Virus record (IMG/VR): IMGVR_UViG_3300025889_000626
Coordinates: 1 to 30,227 of that record
Length of the DNA stretch: 30,227 nucleotides
From: a virus
Reading direction: 5' to 3' (one strand)
The notes under the pieces are model-generated. The model searched no databases. It saw only the letters and a program-made list of their open reading frames with translations, and was not told the DNA's origin. The position numbers and the translations under genes are program-made. Position 1 is the first letter of the stretch, and each line of letters opens with the position of its first letter. This document shows, one piece after another, positions 1 through 30,227 of the stretch.

Positions 1-31
1 GGCGGTGTTTTGTATTTTCCATGTTTAACAT
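1..31 (-). CDS. 5' fragment of small HTH protein gene (left allele)
   Basis: The first ten codons (start at 31, reading left off the window edge) match the beginning of the complete 112-residue HTH gene at 29199-29537. An AGAGGT ribosome site lies just upstream and overlaps the stop codon of the preceding 43-residue gene. The rest of the gene is found at the other end of the window, which supports circularity of the genome. Confidence 0.8.
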   Translation of the reverse strand, partial: MLNMENTKHR

Positions 32-40
32 TTTGTACCT

Positions 41-172
41 CTATAGTGTGTTGTAAATGGTTGCCAGATATGCCAACGCCTTAAACGCTGGAAATATTAA
101 CATCGCACCGCCCAATGCCATTATACATTGGCCGATCGTTGTGCCTAGCTCGTGTGCCTGTTGTTTGTTCAT
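41..172 (-). CDS. 43-residue single-pass membrane protein (left allele)
   Basis: A short gene encoding 43 residues, beginning MNKQQAHELG. Residues about 13-38 are hydrophobic and rich in Gly, Ala, Ile and Leu, so one transmembrane helix is expected, with a short polar N-terminus. The start overlaps the stop of the 97-residue gene as ATGA, and a GAGGGGG ribosome site lies inside that gene. The same gene is present at 29547-29678 with two substitutions (HE to QQ at residues 7-8), so the reading frame is under selection. Function is unknown. A small phage membrane effector, such as a superinfection-exclusion or holin-like peptide, is only a guess. Confidence 0.7.
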   Translation of the reverse strand: MNKQQAHELGTTIGQCIMALGGAMLIFPAFKALAYLATIYNTL

Positions 173-462
173 TGTACCCCCTCAACAATATACATTGATT
201 CTATTAATTCGTGCGATTGTGTAACGTAATCCAATGTTGCAACGTCCATTGGTAACCATTCCATGATACCCGTTACATGTGTGATAATTAACACGCGGGT
301 GTTGGTTGCCATTGCTGGCATATTGGTTTGGCCCATCGGTACGATCTGCATTGATTCCACTAGATCGTGGCACGTGGTGATATGTTCTAACGCGGCAACG
401 GTGTATGGCATCCATTCCATTTTGCCGGATACGTAAGTAATAATTAATATTTTGGTTTGCAT
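169..462 (-). CDS. 97-residue protein made of two tandem repeats; indel cassette
   Basis: The protein consists of two 38-residue units, residues 4-41 and 56-93, which share 21 identical positions, including LIIT, MEW and the ESM..IV end. The start has a GAGGCAAAACA ribosome site. The stop overlaps the start of the 43-residue membrane protein gene (ATGA), so the two are translationally coupled. The whole gene is missing from the second allele at the right end of the window, where the same flanks are joined directly; it behaves as an optional cassette. I recognise no family. Each unit looks like a small alpha/beta element (beta strand LIIT, then helix). Function is unknown. Confidence 0.75.
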   Translation of the reverse strand: MQTKILIITYVSGKMEWMPYTVAALEHITTCHDLVESMQIVPMGQTNMPAMATNTRVLIITHVTGIMEWLPMDVATLDYVTQSHELIESMYIVEGVQ

Positions 463-491
463 TGTTTTGCCTCGGTTGGTGGTTTATTTTA

Positions 492-528
492 CGTGGCACA
501 AATCGCGTATAGGTTGATTTGTACCACG
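492..528. other. Conserved intergenic hairpin
   Basis: An inverted repeat with arms at 492-504 and 516-528 forms a 13-bp stem with one mismatch and an 11-base loop. It lies between the 152-residue gene and the ribosome site of the next gene. There is no T-run on either strand, so it is not a typical terminator. The loop and most of the stem are preserved in the other allele at 29708-29744. It may be an mRNA processing or stability element, or a binding site. Confidence 0.6.
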
Positions 529-550
529 CAAAACAAACCGGTTTGGTTGT

Positions 551-1009
551 TTATAGGTTGTTTACGAATAATTCAATTTGTGTTTGTTCATCACTCGATA
601 ATTCACAAATGCGATTACTAAAACGGCCACGCATTAAAAAATTACACGGGAAACGGCCATGGAATCCAAACGGTTTTAATACCATGATTAAACCACACTC
701 GGGGCGGCCACTACCAAGTACACACACAACAATATCGGTTGATGGTATCTCACTTATTTGGGTTACATTTTGCATTGTATAACCATGTGGTAATTGGTAA
801 TTTTGTGGTAATTTAAATTCTTCTTTAGAAACGTTTGTAGCCTTTAAATAAAATTGTTGATCATATTCGTTGTATTCAATTACACAGCTGAACAAACCGC
901 CATTTTTACCCTTACTAATAAATTTGTATACGGTATCGGTTGGCATGTTGCCGTTTTGCATTTCTTCTAATAATATTTGCGCCTGTTCGTATGATACATA
1001 TGGTTGCAT
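551..1009 (-). CDS. Conserved hypothetical 152-residue protein (left allele)
   Basis: This is the first gene behind the promoter at 1072-1100. The start at 1009 has a GAGGCAAAACA ribosome site, and the longer in-frame extension to 1156 runs back through the promoter, so it is rejected. The protein is soluble and mixed alpha/beta, beginning MQPYVSYEQAQILLEEMQ. It contains LGSGRPECGL and a basic, aromatic stretch around KPFGFHGRFPCNF. The allele at 29767-30225 has the same length with seven substitutions. As the promoter-proximal gene of what looks like the early operon it could be a host-takeover or regulatory protein. No family was recognised and the function is unknown. Confidence 0.75.
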   Translation of the reverse strand: MQPYVSYEQAQILLEEMQNGNMPTDTVYKFISKGKNGGLFSCVIEYNEYDQQFYLKATNVSKEEFKLPQNYQLPHGYTMQNVTQISEIPSTDIVVCVLGSGRPECGLIMVLKPFGFHGRFPCNFLMRGRFSNRICELSSDEQTQIELFVNNL

Positions 1010-1071
1010 TTGTTTTGCCTCGTTTGGTTGTTTTGGTTGTTTTGATATATACACTTGATTGTGTATACATA

Positions 1072-23134: not shown

Positions 23135-24049
23135 TTATGTTATCAAATCATCCAACAAACCAGCTTGCACAATACGTTGGCCGATCCATTGTGAACACTG
23201 AGGCACGATCGCATTGCCCAACGCCTTTAATTGTTCTTTTTCAATTCGTCGCATGGCTCGCCATTGGGATCGATCCACCCCTCCGGGAATCCCATCATCC
23301 ATTGTACAAATTGTGGGTTTAGGCGGTTGGGATTGTTGCCAGTATGTTTTACATCCATCATTGCGCTTAATGTTTTTGAATTTCGCCGGTGTTCGGAGGG
23401 TGCGCCGGTCTCTTTTGCCAAATGTGCAACCGGTGTTGGCAACATCCCCCGTTGTATCATGTACATTAACGGGCGGCCGCCCTGTTTGTATTGGGTTTTG
23501 TGTTCGCATCCCGTGGCCGTTGGCGTTGGCAATAACCCGTGTTGGGTTTGGCTGCTCGGGGGTATATGCAACGCAAAACCACCGCCGGCGTTGGTGGGGT
23601 GCGCCGCATTGTGCAGCTGATATAATACCCCATTCAACACAATACCCGAGGGTGGCAAGGGATCCGACCACCTCGGATCCCCCCATGGCAACAATGTTTG
23701 GCACGTTTTCCAATATTGCAATTCGTGGTCGTAGCTCGCTAATGATTCGCCACATTTCCCACCATAAACCCGATCTTGTTTCATCTTTAATAATCCCCCG
23801 TTGTTTGCCGGCGGTGCTGATATCTTGGCATGGAAATCCACCACATATAACGTCCACCGGTTGTAAATTGTGTGCGCCCACTTCGCGCACATCGTTGTGT
23901 ATTGTTGCATTGGGCCAATGTTTGGCCAATATGGTTTGGCAAAACGCATTTTGTTCTACTTGCCAAACCGTTGTGGCATCACCAAATGCGCGCTCCAAAC
24001 CGAGCTCAAACCCGCCAATGCCGGCAAATAATGAACCTATTTTAATCAT
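23135..24049 (-). CDS. DNA (cytosine-5) methyltransferase
   Basis: 304 residues from the ATG at 24049, which overlaps the end of the helicase-like gene. The conserved motifs are all visible: FAGIGG at 8-13 (AdoMet binding), GGFPCQ at 70-75 with the catalytic Cys 74, ENV at 114-116, QRRRW at 153-157 and GNA at 278-280. It transfers a methyl group from S-adenosylmethionine to C5 of cytosine in a specific site. The target-recognition region (about 165-265) is short. No restriction endonuclease is adjacent, so this is a solitary enzyme, most likely protecting phage DNA from host restriction. Confidence 0.93.
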   Translation of the reverse strand: MIKIGSLFAGIGGFELGLERAFGDATTVWQVEQNAFCQTILAKHWPNATIHNDVREVGAHNLQPVDVICGGFPCQDISTAGKQRGIIKDETRSGLWWEMWRIISELRPRIAILENVPNIVAMGGSEVVGSLATLGYCVEWGIISAAQCGAPHQRRRWFCVAYTPEQPNPTRVIANANGHGMRTQNPIQTGRPPVNVHDTTGDVANTGCTFGKRDRRTLRTPAKFKNIKRNDGCKTYWQQSQPPKPTICTMDDGIPGGVDRSQWRAMRRIEKEQLKALGNAIVPQCSQWIGQRIVQAGLLDDLIT

Positions 24050-25331
24050 TGACCCACACCCGCCCCGTTTTGGTTTGTTTGGTACGGTAACCGAGATCAC
24101 GGCATATTTGCGAGATCCGGCGCGATAATCCCACATGCCGTTGGCCCATCGGTACATCCAACGCATCCAATATTGCATCGGTGGTTGCCGGCATTTCGGG
24201 GTTTGCATGTGGCCCGTTTGCCGCTTGCAATACCTTTTGTGCGGTTACGGCCCATGGATCGGCAACAATGTATGCGTGTTGGATGCGCTCCAATTCGGCG
24301 GCCTCGTTTGGTGTTAGATGCCATTGCATACCGTTATTGTATTCGTGCAACGCCTCACGAAATAGATCAACACGATTTGTTGCCACCCAATCAACATCAA
24401 CAGGGCGCACGATTTGCAACGGCCAAAAACGCCGCTCGGGGCCATCCGTTAAAAATTGCATATCGTTGGTGGTTGCAACAAACACCGTACGCCGTTTGCG
24501 CAATACGGGGGTTTTACCCCATGTTGGCCGGTAACGATCCGCGGGGGATGTTAAAAACATTTTGGCATTGTTTGCCGATCGGCCGTGCAGCGCGTGCATT
24601 TCGGCCAGCTCCCACACCCACACCAACGATTGGTGGATTAACTCGTATGCGCTTTTATTGGTAATGTTGATATTGCTATCACTAAACCATTTTTGCCCCG
24701 CCAATGCGCGTAATACGCGGCTTTTACCCATCCCTTTTGGGCCAACCAACGTTAACACCGTGTGTACATCGCAACCGGGATCCATGATTCGGGCAACCAA
24801 CGATACCATAAACCGTACGGCCAACATATCGTAAAACGGTTGTGTACCGTTTGGCACCTCAACCCCCCAACGTTGATCAAACATACCGGCAATGCGTGGT
24901 GTATCCACATCGGGATCCCACGCCGGCAATGATTCCAACCATGCGCGGATGGGCTCAACACGGTTTTGGTTGGCAACGCGGATTATGCACCCAACCAAAA
25001 ATGTGTCTTTGGTTTTCAATCTGTAATCACGCTCGAGATCCAACGCTATTTGCTCAATGTCGCACGGTTCTAACATGGCCCCGTGATACAACACACGATC
25101 GGATTGCACGCAATATTGCAATGTTTCATATTTGGGATCCCCCTCGAGGATCAACGCCAAATTGTGGCGGCTACAAATCGCGGTGGGCAATTTGGTTATG
25201 TTGCCATCGGCATCGAATTTTGCGGGGTTTTTTGTTAGTTTGTGCCACGTGTCCAGGTGACCCGAGGCGGGGCAATGTGAACGATCGATTTTATGGCCCA
25301 ATGATTCGGCAATGGTTAATATTTTGCTCAT
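24042..25331 (-). CDS. VirE-like helicase/ATPase (replication)
   Basis: 429 residues. The ATPase core has Walker A GPKGMGKS at 197-204, a Walker B-like strand LVWVWELAE at 236-243, VFVATTND at 283-290 and an arginine-rich RRFWPL at 300-305, as in the virulence-associated E (VirE) family, which is close to SF3 helicases of phages and plasmids. It probably unwinds DNA at the origin. The primase partner would be the AEP-like protein at 27879-28736. It is translationally coupled to its upstream HTH neighbour (ATGA) and overlaps the methyltransferase gene downstream. The N-terminal 150 residues show no primase motifs. Confidence 0.88.
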   Translation of the reverse strand: MSKILTIAESLGHKIDRSHCPASGHLDTWHKLTKNPAKFDADGNITKLPTAICSRHNLALILEGDPKYETLQYCVQSDRVLYHGAMLEPCDIEQIALDLERDYRLKTKDTFLVGCIIRVANQNRVEPIRAWLESLPAWDPDVDTPRIAGMFDQRWGVEVPNGTQPFYDMLAVRFMVSLVARIMDPGCDVHTVLTLVGPKGMGKSRVLRALAGQKWFSDSNINITNKSAYELIHQSLVWVWELAEMHALHGRSANNAKMFLTSPADRYRPTWGKTPVLRKRRTVFVATTNDMQFLTDGPERRFWPLQIVRPVDVDWVATNRVDLFREALHEYNNGMQWHLTPNEAAELERIQHAYIVADPWAVTAQKVLQAANGPHANPEMPATTDAILDALDVPMGQRHVGLSRRISQICRDLGYRTKQTKTGRVWVND

Positions 25332-26320: not shown

Positions 26321-26338
26321 GTAAAAAACGCATTTTGT

Positions 26339-26977
26339 TTAAAATAATTTCAATTGGCGCGCGTGAGCTGTATATCTGGCAACGGCGTTTGCGTGATACT
26401 CGGGATCTATTTCCCACGCATCCAAGGCGTAACCGGCATTGTAACATGCAATGGCGATAGATCCCGATCCCAAATGCGTATCAATGATGCGATCCCCCTC
26501 GTTTGCAAACGTATCCAATAACCATTGGTACAGCTGCACCGGTTTTTGTGTTGGGTGGATCTTGCCCTTGGTACGATTATCAAATTTAAACAATTTGGCC
26601 GGTTTGTTGTATGATGTCCAAGCGAGCTCAATTTGTGAGAAATTGGGCCACGGTTGGCATTTATCCCACGCAATAACGCAACGGCCACCGTGCGCCCAAA
26701 TACTCGGGAAATAGTTACCGCCCCAAATGATCTGGTTACGCGATACACGCCGCAATTGATCAAAATATTCCGGGGTGGGTGCGTTATCCCACGCATCCGC
26801 TTTACCATGGTGGGCAAAAAATGCGCGGTCGCCATATTGCCCACCGCCGTTTAAACCACCGCCCAACCATGATTGTTTATCCATCCCGTACGGCGGATCC
26901 ACAATTGCCAAATCATACGCGTTATCATCCATGGCCCGCATGGCGTCCAAGCTATCACCCAAATGTAAATTAATCAT
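26339..26977 (-). CDS. N6-adenine/N4-cytosine DNA methyltransferase, paralogue 2
   Basis: 212 residues. VDPPYG near residue 26-31 is the catalytic motif IV, HPTQKPV introduces the later motifs, and DTHLGSGSIAIAC is the AdoMet-binding motif I. The order catalytic-then-AdoMet is that of the beta class. It is the tandem copy of the gene at 26990-27604: the first 30 and the last 60 residues are nearly identical, while the middle (about 32-140), which should contact DNA, is different. It has AAGGAGG, the strongest ribosome site in the window. The length is short for the family. No endonuclease is adjacent, so anti-restriction or regulatory methylation is likely. Confidence 0.9.
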   Translation of the reverse strand: MINLHLGDSLDAMRAMDDNAYDLAIVDPPYGMDKQSWLGGGLNGGGQYGDRAFFAHHGKADAWDNAPTPEYFDQLRRVSRNQIIWGGNYFPSIWAHGGRCVIAWDKCQPWPNFSQIELAWTSYNKPAKLFKFDNRTKGKIHPTQKPVQLYQWLLDTFANEGDRIIDTHLGSGSIAIACYNAGYALDAWEIDPEYHANAVARYTAHARQLKLF

Positions 26978-26989
26978 TGTGTTACCTCC

Positions 26990-27604
26990 TTAAAACAATT
27001 TTAATTGGCGCGTGTGTGCCTGATATCTGGCAACGGCGTTTGCGTGGTATTCGGGATCTATTTCCCACGCATCCAAGGCGTAACCGCTGTTGTAACATGC
27101 GATGGCAATGGATCCCGATCCCAAATGCGTATCAATGATGCGATCGCCCTCGTTTGCATAGTTATCCAATATCCATTGGTACAACGCCACCGGTTTTTGT
27201 GTTGGGTGCATCCGGTTGGGATCGGTACTGTTTATTTTTACATATCGCGCCGGGCTGTTAAAACTGGTTACCGCTAATTCTACTTGGCTCATGGTTGGTA
27301 CGTACGTCATTTTATCCCAAACAATAAAGCACCTGTAACAATTAACAGGGAAATAATTACCGCCCCAAATGATTTGGTTACGAGATATGCGCCGCAATTG
27401 ATCAAAATATTCCGGTGGCGGGATCTCATTATCCCAATCATGAGCTGCAAATTTTGTTTGGCTATTTCTGGTTTTTTTGGGATCTTTACCACCGTATGTT
27501 TTGTTGCCTAATCCGTATGGCGGATCCACTATCGCCAAATCATACGTGTTATCATCCATGGCCCGCATTGCCGCCAAGCTATCACCCAAATGTAAATTAA
27601 TCAT
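26990..27604 (-). CDS. N6-adenine/N4-cytosine DNA methyltransferase, paralogue 1
   Basis: 204 residues with VDPPYG (catalytic DPPY at 27-30), HPTQKPV and DTHLGSGSIAIAC, a beta-class methyltransferase. Its termini match the neighbouring paralogue almost exactly, but the region from about 32 to 140 (NKTYGGKDPKKTRN and onward) is different, which suggests another recognition site. The start overlaps the upstream HTH gene as ATGA. The two genes are 12 bases apart and arose by tandem duplication with replacement of the middle. N6-adenine versus N4-cytosine cannot be decided from DPPY alone, though DPPY is more usual for adenine. Confidence 0.9.
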   Translation of the reverse strand: MINLHLGDSLAAMRAMDDNTYDLAIVDPPYGLGNKTYGGKDPKKTRNSQTKFAAHDWDNEIPPPEYFDQLRRISRNQIIWGGNYFPVNCYRCFIVWDKMTYVPTMSQVELAVTSFNSPARYVKINSTDPNRMHPTQKPVALYQWILDNYANEGDRIIDTHLGSGSIAIACYNSGYALDAWEIDPEYHANAVARYQAHTRQLKLF

Positions 27605-27882
27605 TTTGTTACCCTCGTTTTGCGTTTGTGAAATTCGTAATCGTAATGCGCCCGTATCAAATCCATGATCAAACGCTCATATTGATCGGGATCCTTGGCA
27701 ATGGCCGCCGTGAGCTCGTAAATACGGTAAAATGGCATTGTGTGCGTGTGTTGCAACCACCGGCGCACCGTGGCGGGTTGTACATCGCAATATTGCGCGA
27801 TTTGGGCCACCGTTTTACCATTGGCATTGGCGGCGTTTATAACTGCATTGCCCAATGTTGAATATTTGATATTTTGATTCAT
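27601..27882 (-). CDS. Small XRE-like HTH protein upstream of the methyltransferases
   Basis: 93 residues from the ATG at 27882, which overlaps the primase stop as ATGA and has GAGG ten bases away. KTVAQIAQYCDVQPATVRRW is a clear helix-turn-helix, followed by the YRIYELTAAIAKD helix and a basic tail (YEFHKRKTRVTK). Its stop overlaps the first methyltransferase start, so they are translated together. It may control expression of the operon or bind the palindromic operators. Confidence 0.75.
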   Translation of the reverse strand: MNQNIKYSTLGNAVINAANANGKTVAQIAQYCDVQPATVRRWLQHTHTMPFYRIYELTAAIAKDPDQYERLIMDLIRAHYDYEFHKRKTRVTK

Positions 27883-28736
27883 TTTAACAGATCCTCGAGG
27901 GTGCCAAACCACCCGCATTTGTTTTGCCGGTTACAACGGGGCCAAACAACGCCGCCGATTGTTTCCGGATCGATTGTGTAATACACCTCGTTATGGGCGC
28001 AATTTGGGCACGTGATGTTGCGTACATTGTTACCGTTAACCGTGGCCCCAATTTGATTTGCAACAGCTAACCGCACACCGGGATCCAACATCGCCATGCG
28101 AACCGTTTTTGTTTCCGTACCTCGCAACGTGGTTTGCATCGGTTTGGGGCGCACAAATCGTTTTGGCACCGGTACGTGGCTGTAATCCAAATCGAGATAT
28201 GGCACACCCAAATGCACCGCCGTTTGGTGGTAATGCGCGGTGTGCATTGGATGTTTTGCCGTGCGTGTTGCCTCGGGTATGGTGTAACGGTAATAACCGC
28301 GCGCCGCATCATTGATTGCGGATTGATCGGGCATACCACGGCCCACCACATCGATCCACAGCTCATTGGCGGCGGTGGCCGCGCGATCCCAATCGGTGGC
28401 CGGTATTGGATTGGCCAACGGTAAAATAACGCGGTATTTGTGCCAATGCGGTTTATGGCTAAATGATGTGTGAGCTATCACGGCCCAATCACCAAACAAC
28501 CGCCACGTATCAAATGCGGTTAACCCATCATCCATATCGTACACCAAACAGTTAATGGCAACGGCGTTGGCTTTGGATCGGGTACCGTTAAACGTGGTTG
28601 GTGACCACATCGGGATGTGTTGTTTTTGTTGCCCACTGGCAACGGGGGTTGTTAACGCACGGGCCAATTGTGTATCACTGCATATTTGCCGTTGGCCCCG
28701 CGTGTTTAACATGTGTGTAAATGTTGTAATTTCCAT
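27879..28736 (-). CDS. AEP-like DNA primase with C-terminal zinc ribbon
   Basis: 285 residues. The pattern of an archaeo-eukaryotic-type primase is seen: a DxD strand LVYDMDD (D67, D69), a basic HKPHWHKYRVILPL segment (H97-R102), and a third carboxylate region DQSAINDAARGYYR (D137 or D143, R146) resembling the D-x-R motif of phage and plasmid prim-pol proteins. The C-terminus carries a four-Cys zinc ribbon (C243, C246, C268, C274), typical of primase DNA binding. It should make primers at the origin and work with the VirE-like helicase. The ribosome site is GAGGCAAATA. Confidence 0.68.
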   Translation of the reverse strand: MEITTFTHMLNTRGQRQICSDTQLARALTTPVASGQQKQHIPMWSPTTFNGTRSKANAVAINCLVYDMDDGLTAFDTWRLFGDWAVIAHTSFSHKPHWHKYRVILPLANPIPATDWDRAATAANELWIDVVGRGMPDQSAINDAARGYYRYTIPEATRTAKHPMHTAHYHQTAVHLGVPYLDLDYSHVPVPKRFVRPKPMQTTLRGTETKTVRMAMLDPGVRLAVANQIGATVNGNNVRNITCPNCAHNEVYYTIDPETIGGVVWPRCNRQNKCGWFGTLEDLLK

Positions 28737-29198: not shown

Positions 29199-29537
29199 TT
29201 AACGCTCCAATGATTGCAACCGCATAAACGCGGCGCAATGTTCATTTACCACATCGTTGTTAATGATGTTGCCATAATCATCATACACCGCATATAACGC
29301 AACGCATATACGCAATAAGAAATGGCTCGCGGGGTATTGTGTACCGTTTAACCATTTATCCAATGCGGGTTTACTACAATGGATCTCGTTTGCCAATTGT
29401 ACTCGGGTAAAATCCGATGCATCCACCGCGGCATGTAACGTTGCCGCGAACCCACCGCCCGCCAACATTTTTTTGGCCACGGTGCGCCCATACTGTTTTA
29501 CCAATTGGCGGTGTTTTGTATTTTCCATGTTTAACAT
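29199..29537 (-). CDS. Small HTH protein, start of the replication block
   Basis: 112 residues. FTRVQLANEIHCSKPALDKW fits a Cro/C1-type helix-turn-helix, followed by FLLRICVALYA. The first 60 residues are basic and helical. The start has AGAGGT overlapping the stop of the 43-residue membrane protein gene. The first ten codons reappear at the left end of the window. It may be a repressor or a replication accessory protein. The co-occurrence of several such proteins suggests layered control of gene expression. Confidence 0.72.
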   Translation of the reverse strand: MLNMENTKHRQLVKQYGRTVAKKMLAGGGFAATLHAAVDASDFTRVQLANEIHCSKPALDKWLNGTQYPASHFLLRICVALYAVYDDYGNIINNDVVNEHCAAFMRLQSLER

Positions 29538-29546
29538 TTTGTACCT

Positions 29547-29678
29547 CTATAGTGTGTTGTAAATGGTTGCCAGATATGCCAACGCCTTAAACGCTGGAAA
29601 TATTAACATTGCACCGCCCAATGCCATTATACATTGGCCGATCGTTGTGCCGAGCTGTTGCGCCTGTTGTTTGTTCAT
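29547..29678 (-). CDS. 43-residue single-pass membrane protein (right allele)
   Basis: The same gene as at 41-172, with AQQLG instead of AHELG at residues 6-10. Here the ribosome site is GAGGTAACAAA and lies in an intergenic region, because the 97-residue gene is absent. One hydrophobic helix at about 13-38. Function is unknown. Confidence 0.7.
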   Translation of the reverse strand: MNKQQAQQLGTTIGQCIMALGGAMLIFPAFKALAYLATIYNTL

Positions 29679-29707
29679 TTTGTTACCTCGGTTGGTGGTT
29701 TATTTTA

Positions 29708-29744
29708 CGTGGCACACATCGCGTATAGGTTGATTTGTACCACG
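29708..29744. other. Intergenic hairpin (right allele)
   Basis: The counterpart of 492-528. Arms at 29708-29720 and 29732-29744 pair with two mismatches instead of one; the 11-base loop is unchanged. Confidence 0.5.
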
Positions 29745-29766
29745 CAAAACAAACCGGGTTGGTTGT

Positions 29767-30225
29767 TTATAAATTGTTTACGAATAATGCGATTTGTGCG
29801 TGTTCATCATCCGATAATTCACAAATGCGATTGCTGAAACGGCCACGCATTAAAAAATTACACGGATAACGGCCATGGAATCCAAACGGTTTTAATACCA
29901 TGATTAAACCACATTCGGGGCGGCCACTACCAAGTACACACACAACAATATCGGTTGATGGTATCTCACTTATTTGTGTTACATTTTGCATTGTATAACC
30001 ATGTGGTAATTGATAATTTTGTGGTAATTTAAATTGTTCTCTCGAAACGTTTGTCGCCTTTAAATAAAATTGTTGATCGTATTCATTGTACTCAATTACG
30101 CAGCTGAACAAACCGCCATTTTTACCCTTACTAATAAATTTGTATACGGTATCGGTTGGCATGTTGCCGTTTTGCATTTCTTCTAATAATATTTGCGCCT
30201 GTTCGTATGATACATATGGTTGCAT
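29767..30225 (-). CDS. Conserved hypothetical 152-residue protein (right allele)
   Basis: The same protein as at 551-1009 with seven substitutions, mostly near residues 60 and 140-150. The window ends two bases beyond its ATG, so its ribosome site and promoter lie outside; by analogy they are those at 1012-1100. Function is unknown. Confidence 0.75.
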   Translation of the reverse strand: MQPYVSYEQAQILLEEMQNGNMPTDTVYKFISKGKNGGLFSCVIEYNEYDQQFYLKATNVSREQFKLPQNYQLPHGYTMQNVTQISEIPSTDIVVCVLGSGRPECGLIMVLKPFGFHGRYPCNFLMRGRFSNRICELSDDEHAQIALFVNNL

Positions 30226-30227
30226 TT

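Follow-up and report, generated by a model that had tools for sequence, protein, structure and literature searches.

Organization of the gene pair

The stretch of DNA analyzed here (the window) is a virus record of 30,227 bases whose terminase, major head and tape measure genes mark the genes on it as phage-encoded; the carrier is a tailed phage, uncultivated. Two intact open reading frames, gene B followed by gene A, lie in tandem on the minus strand (Table 1). When the two are aligned, three conserved blocks (N, M and C) alternate with two diverged ones (V1 and V2), where the identical residues amount to 3 of 26 aligned positions in V1 and 19 of 47 in V2.

Table 1. Features of the methyltransferase array and its surroundings. 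Residue numbers refer to the gene named in each row.
Feature	Position	Strand	Description
Gene B, first of the pair	26990..27604	-	orphan-type beta-class N6-adenine methyltransferase (predicted), 204 aa; Pfam PF01555 52.8 bits; phrog_67 3e-35
B conserved block N, aa 1-31, with DPPY (motif IV)	27512..27604	-	91% nt to A
B variable block V1, aa 32-57, corresponding to CcrM Loop-2B	27434..27511	-	36% nt to A; profile alignment to CcrM
B conserved middle block M, aa 58-86	27347..27433	-	84.5% nt to A; 77-nt core 88%
B variable block V2, aa 87-133, corresponding to CcrM Loop-45 to Loop-6E	27206..27346	-	47% nt to A; CcrM profile alignment
B conserved block C, aa 134-204, with SAM motif DTHLGSGS and the remainder of HPTQKP	26993..27205	-	89% nt to A
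B-A spacer, 12 bases	26978..26989	-	GGAGGTAACACA; ribosome-binding-site-like GGAGG before A; sequence
Gene A, second of the pair	26339..26977	-	B's family, 212 aa; Pfam PF01555 50.4 bits; phrog_67 2e-34
A conserved block N, aa 1-31	26885..26977	-	A-B block comparison
A variable block V1, aa 32-63	26789..26884	-	A-B block comparison
A conserved middle block M, aa 64-92	26702..26788	-	A-B block comparison
A variable block V2, aa 93-141	26555..26701	-	recognition type of L026, L004, L014, L029 and L028 gene 1
A conserved block C, aa 142-212	26342..26554	-	A-B block comparison
HTH-domain protein directly upstream of B	27601..27918	-	PF13384 26.6 bits; stop overlaps B start by 4 nt
Cytosine-5 type methyltransferase, third in the window	23135..24208	-	PF00145; listed frame overlaps VapE-like gene

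A repeat search of the DNA gives the same picture. The ends match over 223 nt at 89% (26339-26561 against 26990-27212) and over 118 nt at 86% (26869-26986 against 27496-27613), both far above chance, and an island of 77 nt at 88% (26697-26773 against 27339-27415) lies inside the middle. The original prediction, that two genes with ends conserved even in DNA enclose entirely different middles, thus holds for the ends once their limits are corrected: the repeat begins at 26339, with the stop codon of A, rather than at 26332, and the ends span about 31 and 71 codons rather than 30 and 60. The middles are strongly diverged but not throughout, since M is retained within them, and the scheme of two ends around one exchanged middle becomes one of three conserved and two exchanged blocks. 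The likeness of the ends exceeds chance: in the 10,744 cross-contig pairs of the family whose middles differ to a similar degree, ends matching as closely as those of A and B (0.90) occur only 18 times. The pairs are not independent, and copies of the window's phage are involved in some of the 18.

Enzyme class and fold

Both proteins score above the curated cut-off of 26.7 bits for PF01555 (N6_N4_Mtase), and their motifs run DPPY (aa 27-30), HPTQKP (141-146 of A) and then DTHLGSGS, that is IV, X, I, the order given for beta-class methyltransferases (PMC4190342). AlphaFold models have pLDDT values of 89.4 for B and 86.8 for A. A structure search, run with the B model, matches M.BceJIV in its DNA-bound form (9c3s_A; Z 19.2, rmsd 2.8 over 180 residues) and CcrM (6pbd; Z 19.1), to which B is 25-27% identical in sequence. 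These two bacterial enzymes resemble A and B in fold and motif order, although CcrM has an extra C-terminal domain that A and B do not. The solved relatives nearest by both sequence and fold are adenine enzymes, with cytosine-N4 enzymes matching too, and both A and B are probably active and methylate adenine.

Profile alignment to CcrM places V1, after DPPY, at the position of Loop-2B, and V2, from the WDK strand to HPTQKP, at that of Loop-45 and Loop-6E. These are loops that, according to the published CcrM-DNA structure (PMC6787082), read the target bases. By homology, therefore, the difference between A and B falls on the DNA-reading surface, and V1 and V2 would be expected to set the methylation motif.

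Among the neighbouring proteins scanned, which represent part of the open reading frames, we recognized no cognate restriction endonuclease, a kind of enzyme that diverges fast. Nor do the genes resemble a Type III system, in which a large Mod is paired with Res: at 204-212 aa, A and B compare with 616 and 420 residues for the Type III Mod chains among the structure matches (4zcf_A and 7dsu_B), and no Res partner was recognized in the array neighbourhood. Named phage isolates contain no relative of B or A at 60% identity (599 and 609 records), so that neither a host nor a motif can be transferred to the pair.

The locus in related phages

In the window and its relatives, the array sits between a primase-like gene, joined in the window's clade by the HTH gene, and the 25761, 25328 and VapE genes. 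The HTH gene also adjoins the array in L028 and L035 and serves there as a marker of the locus. For the cytosine-5 type methyltransferase of the window, no match was found behind the VapE gene of the related contig L014.

The content of this site varies. The window, L001, L002 and L003 carry B and then A; L028 has a gene with an A-type middle followed by one of a second type; L111 has a different first gene followed by the second type of L028 (51 of 51 V2 residues); and L005 has two genes, one of them with the middle of the first L111 gene. Single genes occupy the site in L004, L026, L014 and L029, with an A-type V2, and in L035, with another, third middle. The DNA of L028 and that of L111 agree at about 90%, yet the two reading blocks of gene 1 differ. 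Along the DNA, identity is 82-98% in the primase gene, then in gene 1 47-58% in V1, 83-95% in M, 48-58% in V2 and 80-100% beyond, and 88-100% in gene 2. It drops after the block coding for DPPYG, recovers in M, drops again in V2 and recovers at the HPTQKP block, so that the breakpoints lie at sequence coding for conserved motifs. Between L028 and L035, a flank that is 93% identical extends into the first codons of the array gene. The original prediction had proposed to look in relatives for one-gene versions and chimeras; L035 is a one-gene version, and L028 and L111 show a replacement in the same slot.

The suggestion that such change is rapid is not supported. The 1,266-nt array is base-identical in L001, L002 and L003, even though one of these three has 44 differing positions within 7.9 kb; the array is thus unchanged in four records of the window's phage, with no recent exchange visible there, and no switching machinery was recognized.

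Two further observations concern the surroundings of the array. Part of the HTH gene before it (L028 2432-2611) is 70-77% identical between L028 and L111, with 92-93% on both sides, and this segment may have been exchanged along with the array or in addition to it. Three contigs of the L028 clade (L109, L110 and L112) stop short of the array on its upstream side, by about 140-340 nt, and L114 begins inside the second array gene, as if assemblies broke at the variable array.

Histories of ends and middles

Relatives were gathered from viral contigs, and trees were built for 16 close relatives. In the tree of the ends, A and B are sisters (support 98/96), with the L028, L111 and L035 genes in a group of their own (93/94, not starred). 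In the V2 tree, A falls with L026, L014, L004, L029, L118 and L028 gene 1 (68/83, not starred); another group joins L111 gene 1 to L005 gene 2 (81/84). The V2 of A is identical to that of L028 gene 1 at 46 of 49 residues and to that of L026 at 48 of 49. Forcing the clade with A-type middles on the ends costs 172 log-likelihood units and is rejected (p-AU 2e-54), and forcing L028 gene 1 and L111 gene 1 together on V2 costs 80 (p-AU 2e-64). Forcing A and B together on V2 costs 12 units and is rejected only narrowly (p-AU 0.033), and the middle of B is a long branch. Because the clades were picked after the first trees had been viewed, the p values (AU test by treekit) are optimistic, and we place weight on the size of the likelihood differences instead. 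Swapping whole trees between the regions, in both directions, is 140-313 log-likelihood units worse in a site-likelihood KH test, which is biased towards rejection because the trees were drawn from the tested data. A common history of ends and middles had been named as the outcome that would speak against exchange; the opposite was obtained, and on these trees the ends and middles of A and B have different histories.

Synonymous sites, counted in codons for identical residues only, point in the same direction. Between A and B, the ends have 23 differences at 112 such sites and the middles 11 at 20 (Fisher p 0.004). Between A and L028 gene 1, which have a middle in common, the ends have 42 differences at 103 sites and V2 has 19 at 42, similar values that make this pair about equally old throughout. 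The ends of A and B are less diverged than those of A and L028 gene 1 (23/112 against 42/103, p 0.002) and hence younger than the split of the phages. L028's own gene pair repeats the pattern (25 of 111 in the ends, p 0.005). Young ends within both pairs indicate that the ends have been homogenized within each lineage. L111 gene 1 and L005 gene 2 have a middle in common (51 of 58 V2 residues) and show equal synonymous divergence in V2 (16/49) and ends (33/98), so that donor cannot be separated from recipient.

Survey of the family

A query- and pattern-based sample of the family, which is no census and whose pair counts are not independent, contains 222 full-length members, with 24 tandem pairs in 21 loci that reduce to 15 distinct arrays. 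Ten of these 15 combine ends that are 0.78-0.99 identical with middles at 0.12-0.41. The other five (L025, L068, L082, L091 and L041) have ends at 0.30-0.68, like unrelated pairs, and homogenization is thus not universal. The nearest sequence by ends lies in the same locus for 15 of 45 array members, and the nearest by middle for 2 of 45; with duplicate records collapsed to 33 members, the numbers remain 15 and 2. Longer arrays also occur, with four tandem members in L025 (5977-8505), where the ends of neighbours are 0.59-0.68 identical, and three in L063 (99-1959), where they are 0.91.

Removal of near-duplicates (at least 95% identity) left 174 sequences, which fall into 74 V2 groups. Among cross-contig pairs of this set, V2 is below 0.4 in 362 of the 540 whose N and C blocks are at least 0.8 identical. 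Conversely, of 528 pairs with V2 at 0.7 or more, 155 have N and C below 0.55, and 312 have V1 below 0.4; V2 is below 0.5 in 37 of 166 pairs with V1 at 0.7 or more. In L014 and L026, for example, 48 of 49 V2 residues are common but only 5 of 29 in V1. Rank correlations of the identities (Spearman) are 0.61 for N with C, 0.30 for N with V2 and 0.35 for C with V2; the outermost blocks therefore co-vary more with each other than either does with the V2 between them, which supports exchange. The pattern can also be reversed, as in L178 and L163, with 54 of 58 V2 residues identical (86% nt) and 29 of 71 in C (54% nt). Recognition segments are thus common to genes with diverged backbones.

In bacterial genomes, genes of Formosimonas limnophila and Hydromonas duriensis match A at 0.70 in V2 and near 0.5 in the ends, and a Bacteroidetes bin matches B at 0.60 in V2 and 0.52 in the ends. 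Among the best 80 genome loci and three phage stretches, a comparison of three close same-strand pairs, one of which is phage L200, gave ends at 0.28-0.50 and hence no homogenized pair; a fourth pair, L258, is cut off by the contig end in its second gene and lies outside this comparison.

A model for exchange of the recognition segments

We consider it very probable that A and B are orphan methyltransferases on a common scaffold whose V1 and V2 have been exchanged by recombination at N, M and C, likely for protection from restriction. Exchange at the conserved blocks is well supported by the mosaic structure of the genes, the discordant histories of ends and middles, the replacement in the same slot and the one- and two-gene versions of the locus, as these are read from the sequences; we infer its direction and rate. 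In this model, differing DNA-reading segments are inserted between N, M and C, which carry the catalytic and SAM motifs, and the near-identical DNA of these three blocks would provide the homology for recombination. Within a phage lineage, neighbouring copies could be homogenized by gene conversion, or one gene could be duplicated and its middle replaced. Between phages, V1 and V2 would be replaced while the rest of the gene keeps its place. The outcome would be a single locus of one or two genes with shifting methylation specificities, used to protect phage DNA from host restriction enzymes with two specificities at once. An anti-restriction use is, by analogy, the most likely one for A and B. 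A more ambitious version, which we regard as tentative and somewhat doubtful, is a cassette in which V1 and V2 assort independently and the tandem copies act as mutual donors and as a reservoir, giving combinatorial specificities that track host restriction. In a tamer alternative to independent modules, V1 would be a loop that changes fast and contributes little to specificity.

The same anatomy might have arisen by plain duplication and divergence, in which catalysis constrains the ends, the middle is free or positively selected, and there is no recombination. The conserved blocks do contain the catalytic and SAM motifs, so selection contributes. Synonymous sites, however, are also less different in the ends than in the middle, the middle of A is near-identical to middles of other phages while its ends are not, middles elsewhere are more conserved than ends (L178 and L163), and the tree swaps were rejected. 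Given the synonymous sites and the reversed pattern, we reject divergence by selection only, and regard the explanation as a whole as the most improbable of those weighed here. It is very unlikely that the mosaics are metagenome assembly chimeras, with short reads mis-joined at the common ends. Every close relative is a metagenomic contig, and L109, L110 and L112 end near the array, upstream of it. Yet the longest exact run common to A and B is 36 nt (53 nt in L028), short for a misjoin. Metagenome assemblers usually reach long k-mers. In addition, synonymous changes separate the ends of the array copies, the array is identical in L001-L003 (possibly not all independent assemblies), and the second middle of L111 recurs in L114 and L028.

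Tandem copies with homologous ends, numbering two to four in some phages, would also suit phase-variable shuffling of specificity within a population, as in bacterial hsdS loci. This appears highly unlikely in view of the invariance of the array in the four records of the window's phage, and no recombinase was recognized among the neighbours searched. An inverting switch or a repeat tract was rejected, since the inverted repeats of the region are only 15-22 nt long at 77-87% identity and the array contains no tandem-repeat tract. Another possibility leaves the mosaic as it is and concerns its use, in that methylation might serve regulation, packaging or the marking of competitor DNA rather than anti-restriction. 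The sequence does not separate these uses, and the cytosine-type methyltransferase is also present in the window. On the other hand, diverse recognition segments at a fixed locus agree better with a target that keeps changing, as host restriction does, than with a regulatory site that is conserved, and phage orphan methyltransferases of the same class are described as protecting lactococcal phages from restriction (PMC4190342). We consider such other uses unlikely, if still a serious contender.

Relation to known systems

It is established that the recognition domains of bacterial Type I and Type III systems move through recombination at sequence coding for motifs (PMC3983042, PMC7379913, PMC3311624, PMC4996451), and the A/B case would thus be a phage orphan-methyltransferase variant of a known process. 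In the Type I hsdS and Type III mod genes of Helicobacter pylori, where such movement (DoMo and its relatives) is described (PMC3983042, PMC7379913), segments likewise fall into homology groups and are moved, at sequence coding for conserved motifs, onto non-orthologous backbones. In contrast to that system, A and B are phage-borne, 204-212 aa long and in tandem, their scaffolds are homogenized, no restriction partner was recognized, and two segments appear to be exchanged around a retained M. The modA alleles of Neisseria and Haemophilus, too, have mosaic recognition domains replaced en bloc in a fixed gene, but modA is a phase-variable bacterial Type III gene and not a tandem phage pair (PMC3311624). 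Closest in class are the phage orphan N6-adenine methyltransferases M.Phi145I and M.Phi93I of lactococcal 936 phages, beta-class enzymes with the motif GGWGA that, as reported, protect against a restriction enzyme (PMC4190342). They are nevertheless distant, the phi145 match (H73) being 34.8% identical to A over 42% of its length, and the available text of PMC4190342 reports no tandem mosaic for them. In the literature searched, which covers few subscription papers, we found no tandem phage methyltransferases with exchanged recognition segments. Exchangeable recognition domains are a feature of the multispecific cytosine methyltransferases of Bacillus phages.

What appears to be new here is the tandem arrangement of standalone phage enzymes with homogenized scaffolds and two exchanged segments. 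Recognition-domain exchange, familiar from bacterial restriction-modification, is thereby extended to small phage methyltransferases that stand alone and vary in copy number. Phages with exchanged reading parts could probably change which DNA sites they protect. L028 and L111 are natural swaps for asking which block sets which bases of the motif, pairs of this type offer a way to ask whether phage methylation specificity follows host restriction, and the family set provides a sizeable stock of natural reading segments, all carried by one scaffold of about 205 residues.

Ends of the window

The two ends of the window (1-1011 and 29506-30227) are imperfect repeats of each other, 97.1% identical over 173 nt and 94.6% over 559 nt, with a stretch at about 174-454 present in the left copy only. 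A small open reading frame in this left-only stretch (169-462, minus strand), which has no NCBIfam match, shows an internal duplication, with one half (MQTKILIITYVSGKMEW...) resembling the other (TNTRVLIITHVTGIMEW...). Contig L113 joins both ends without the left-only stretch, an arrangement suggestive of a circular or permuted genome whose assembly combined two variants.
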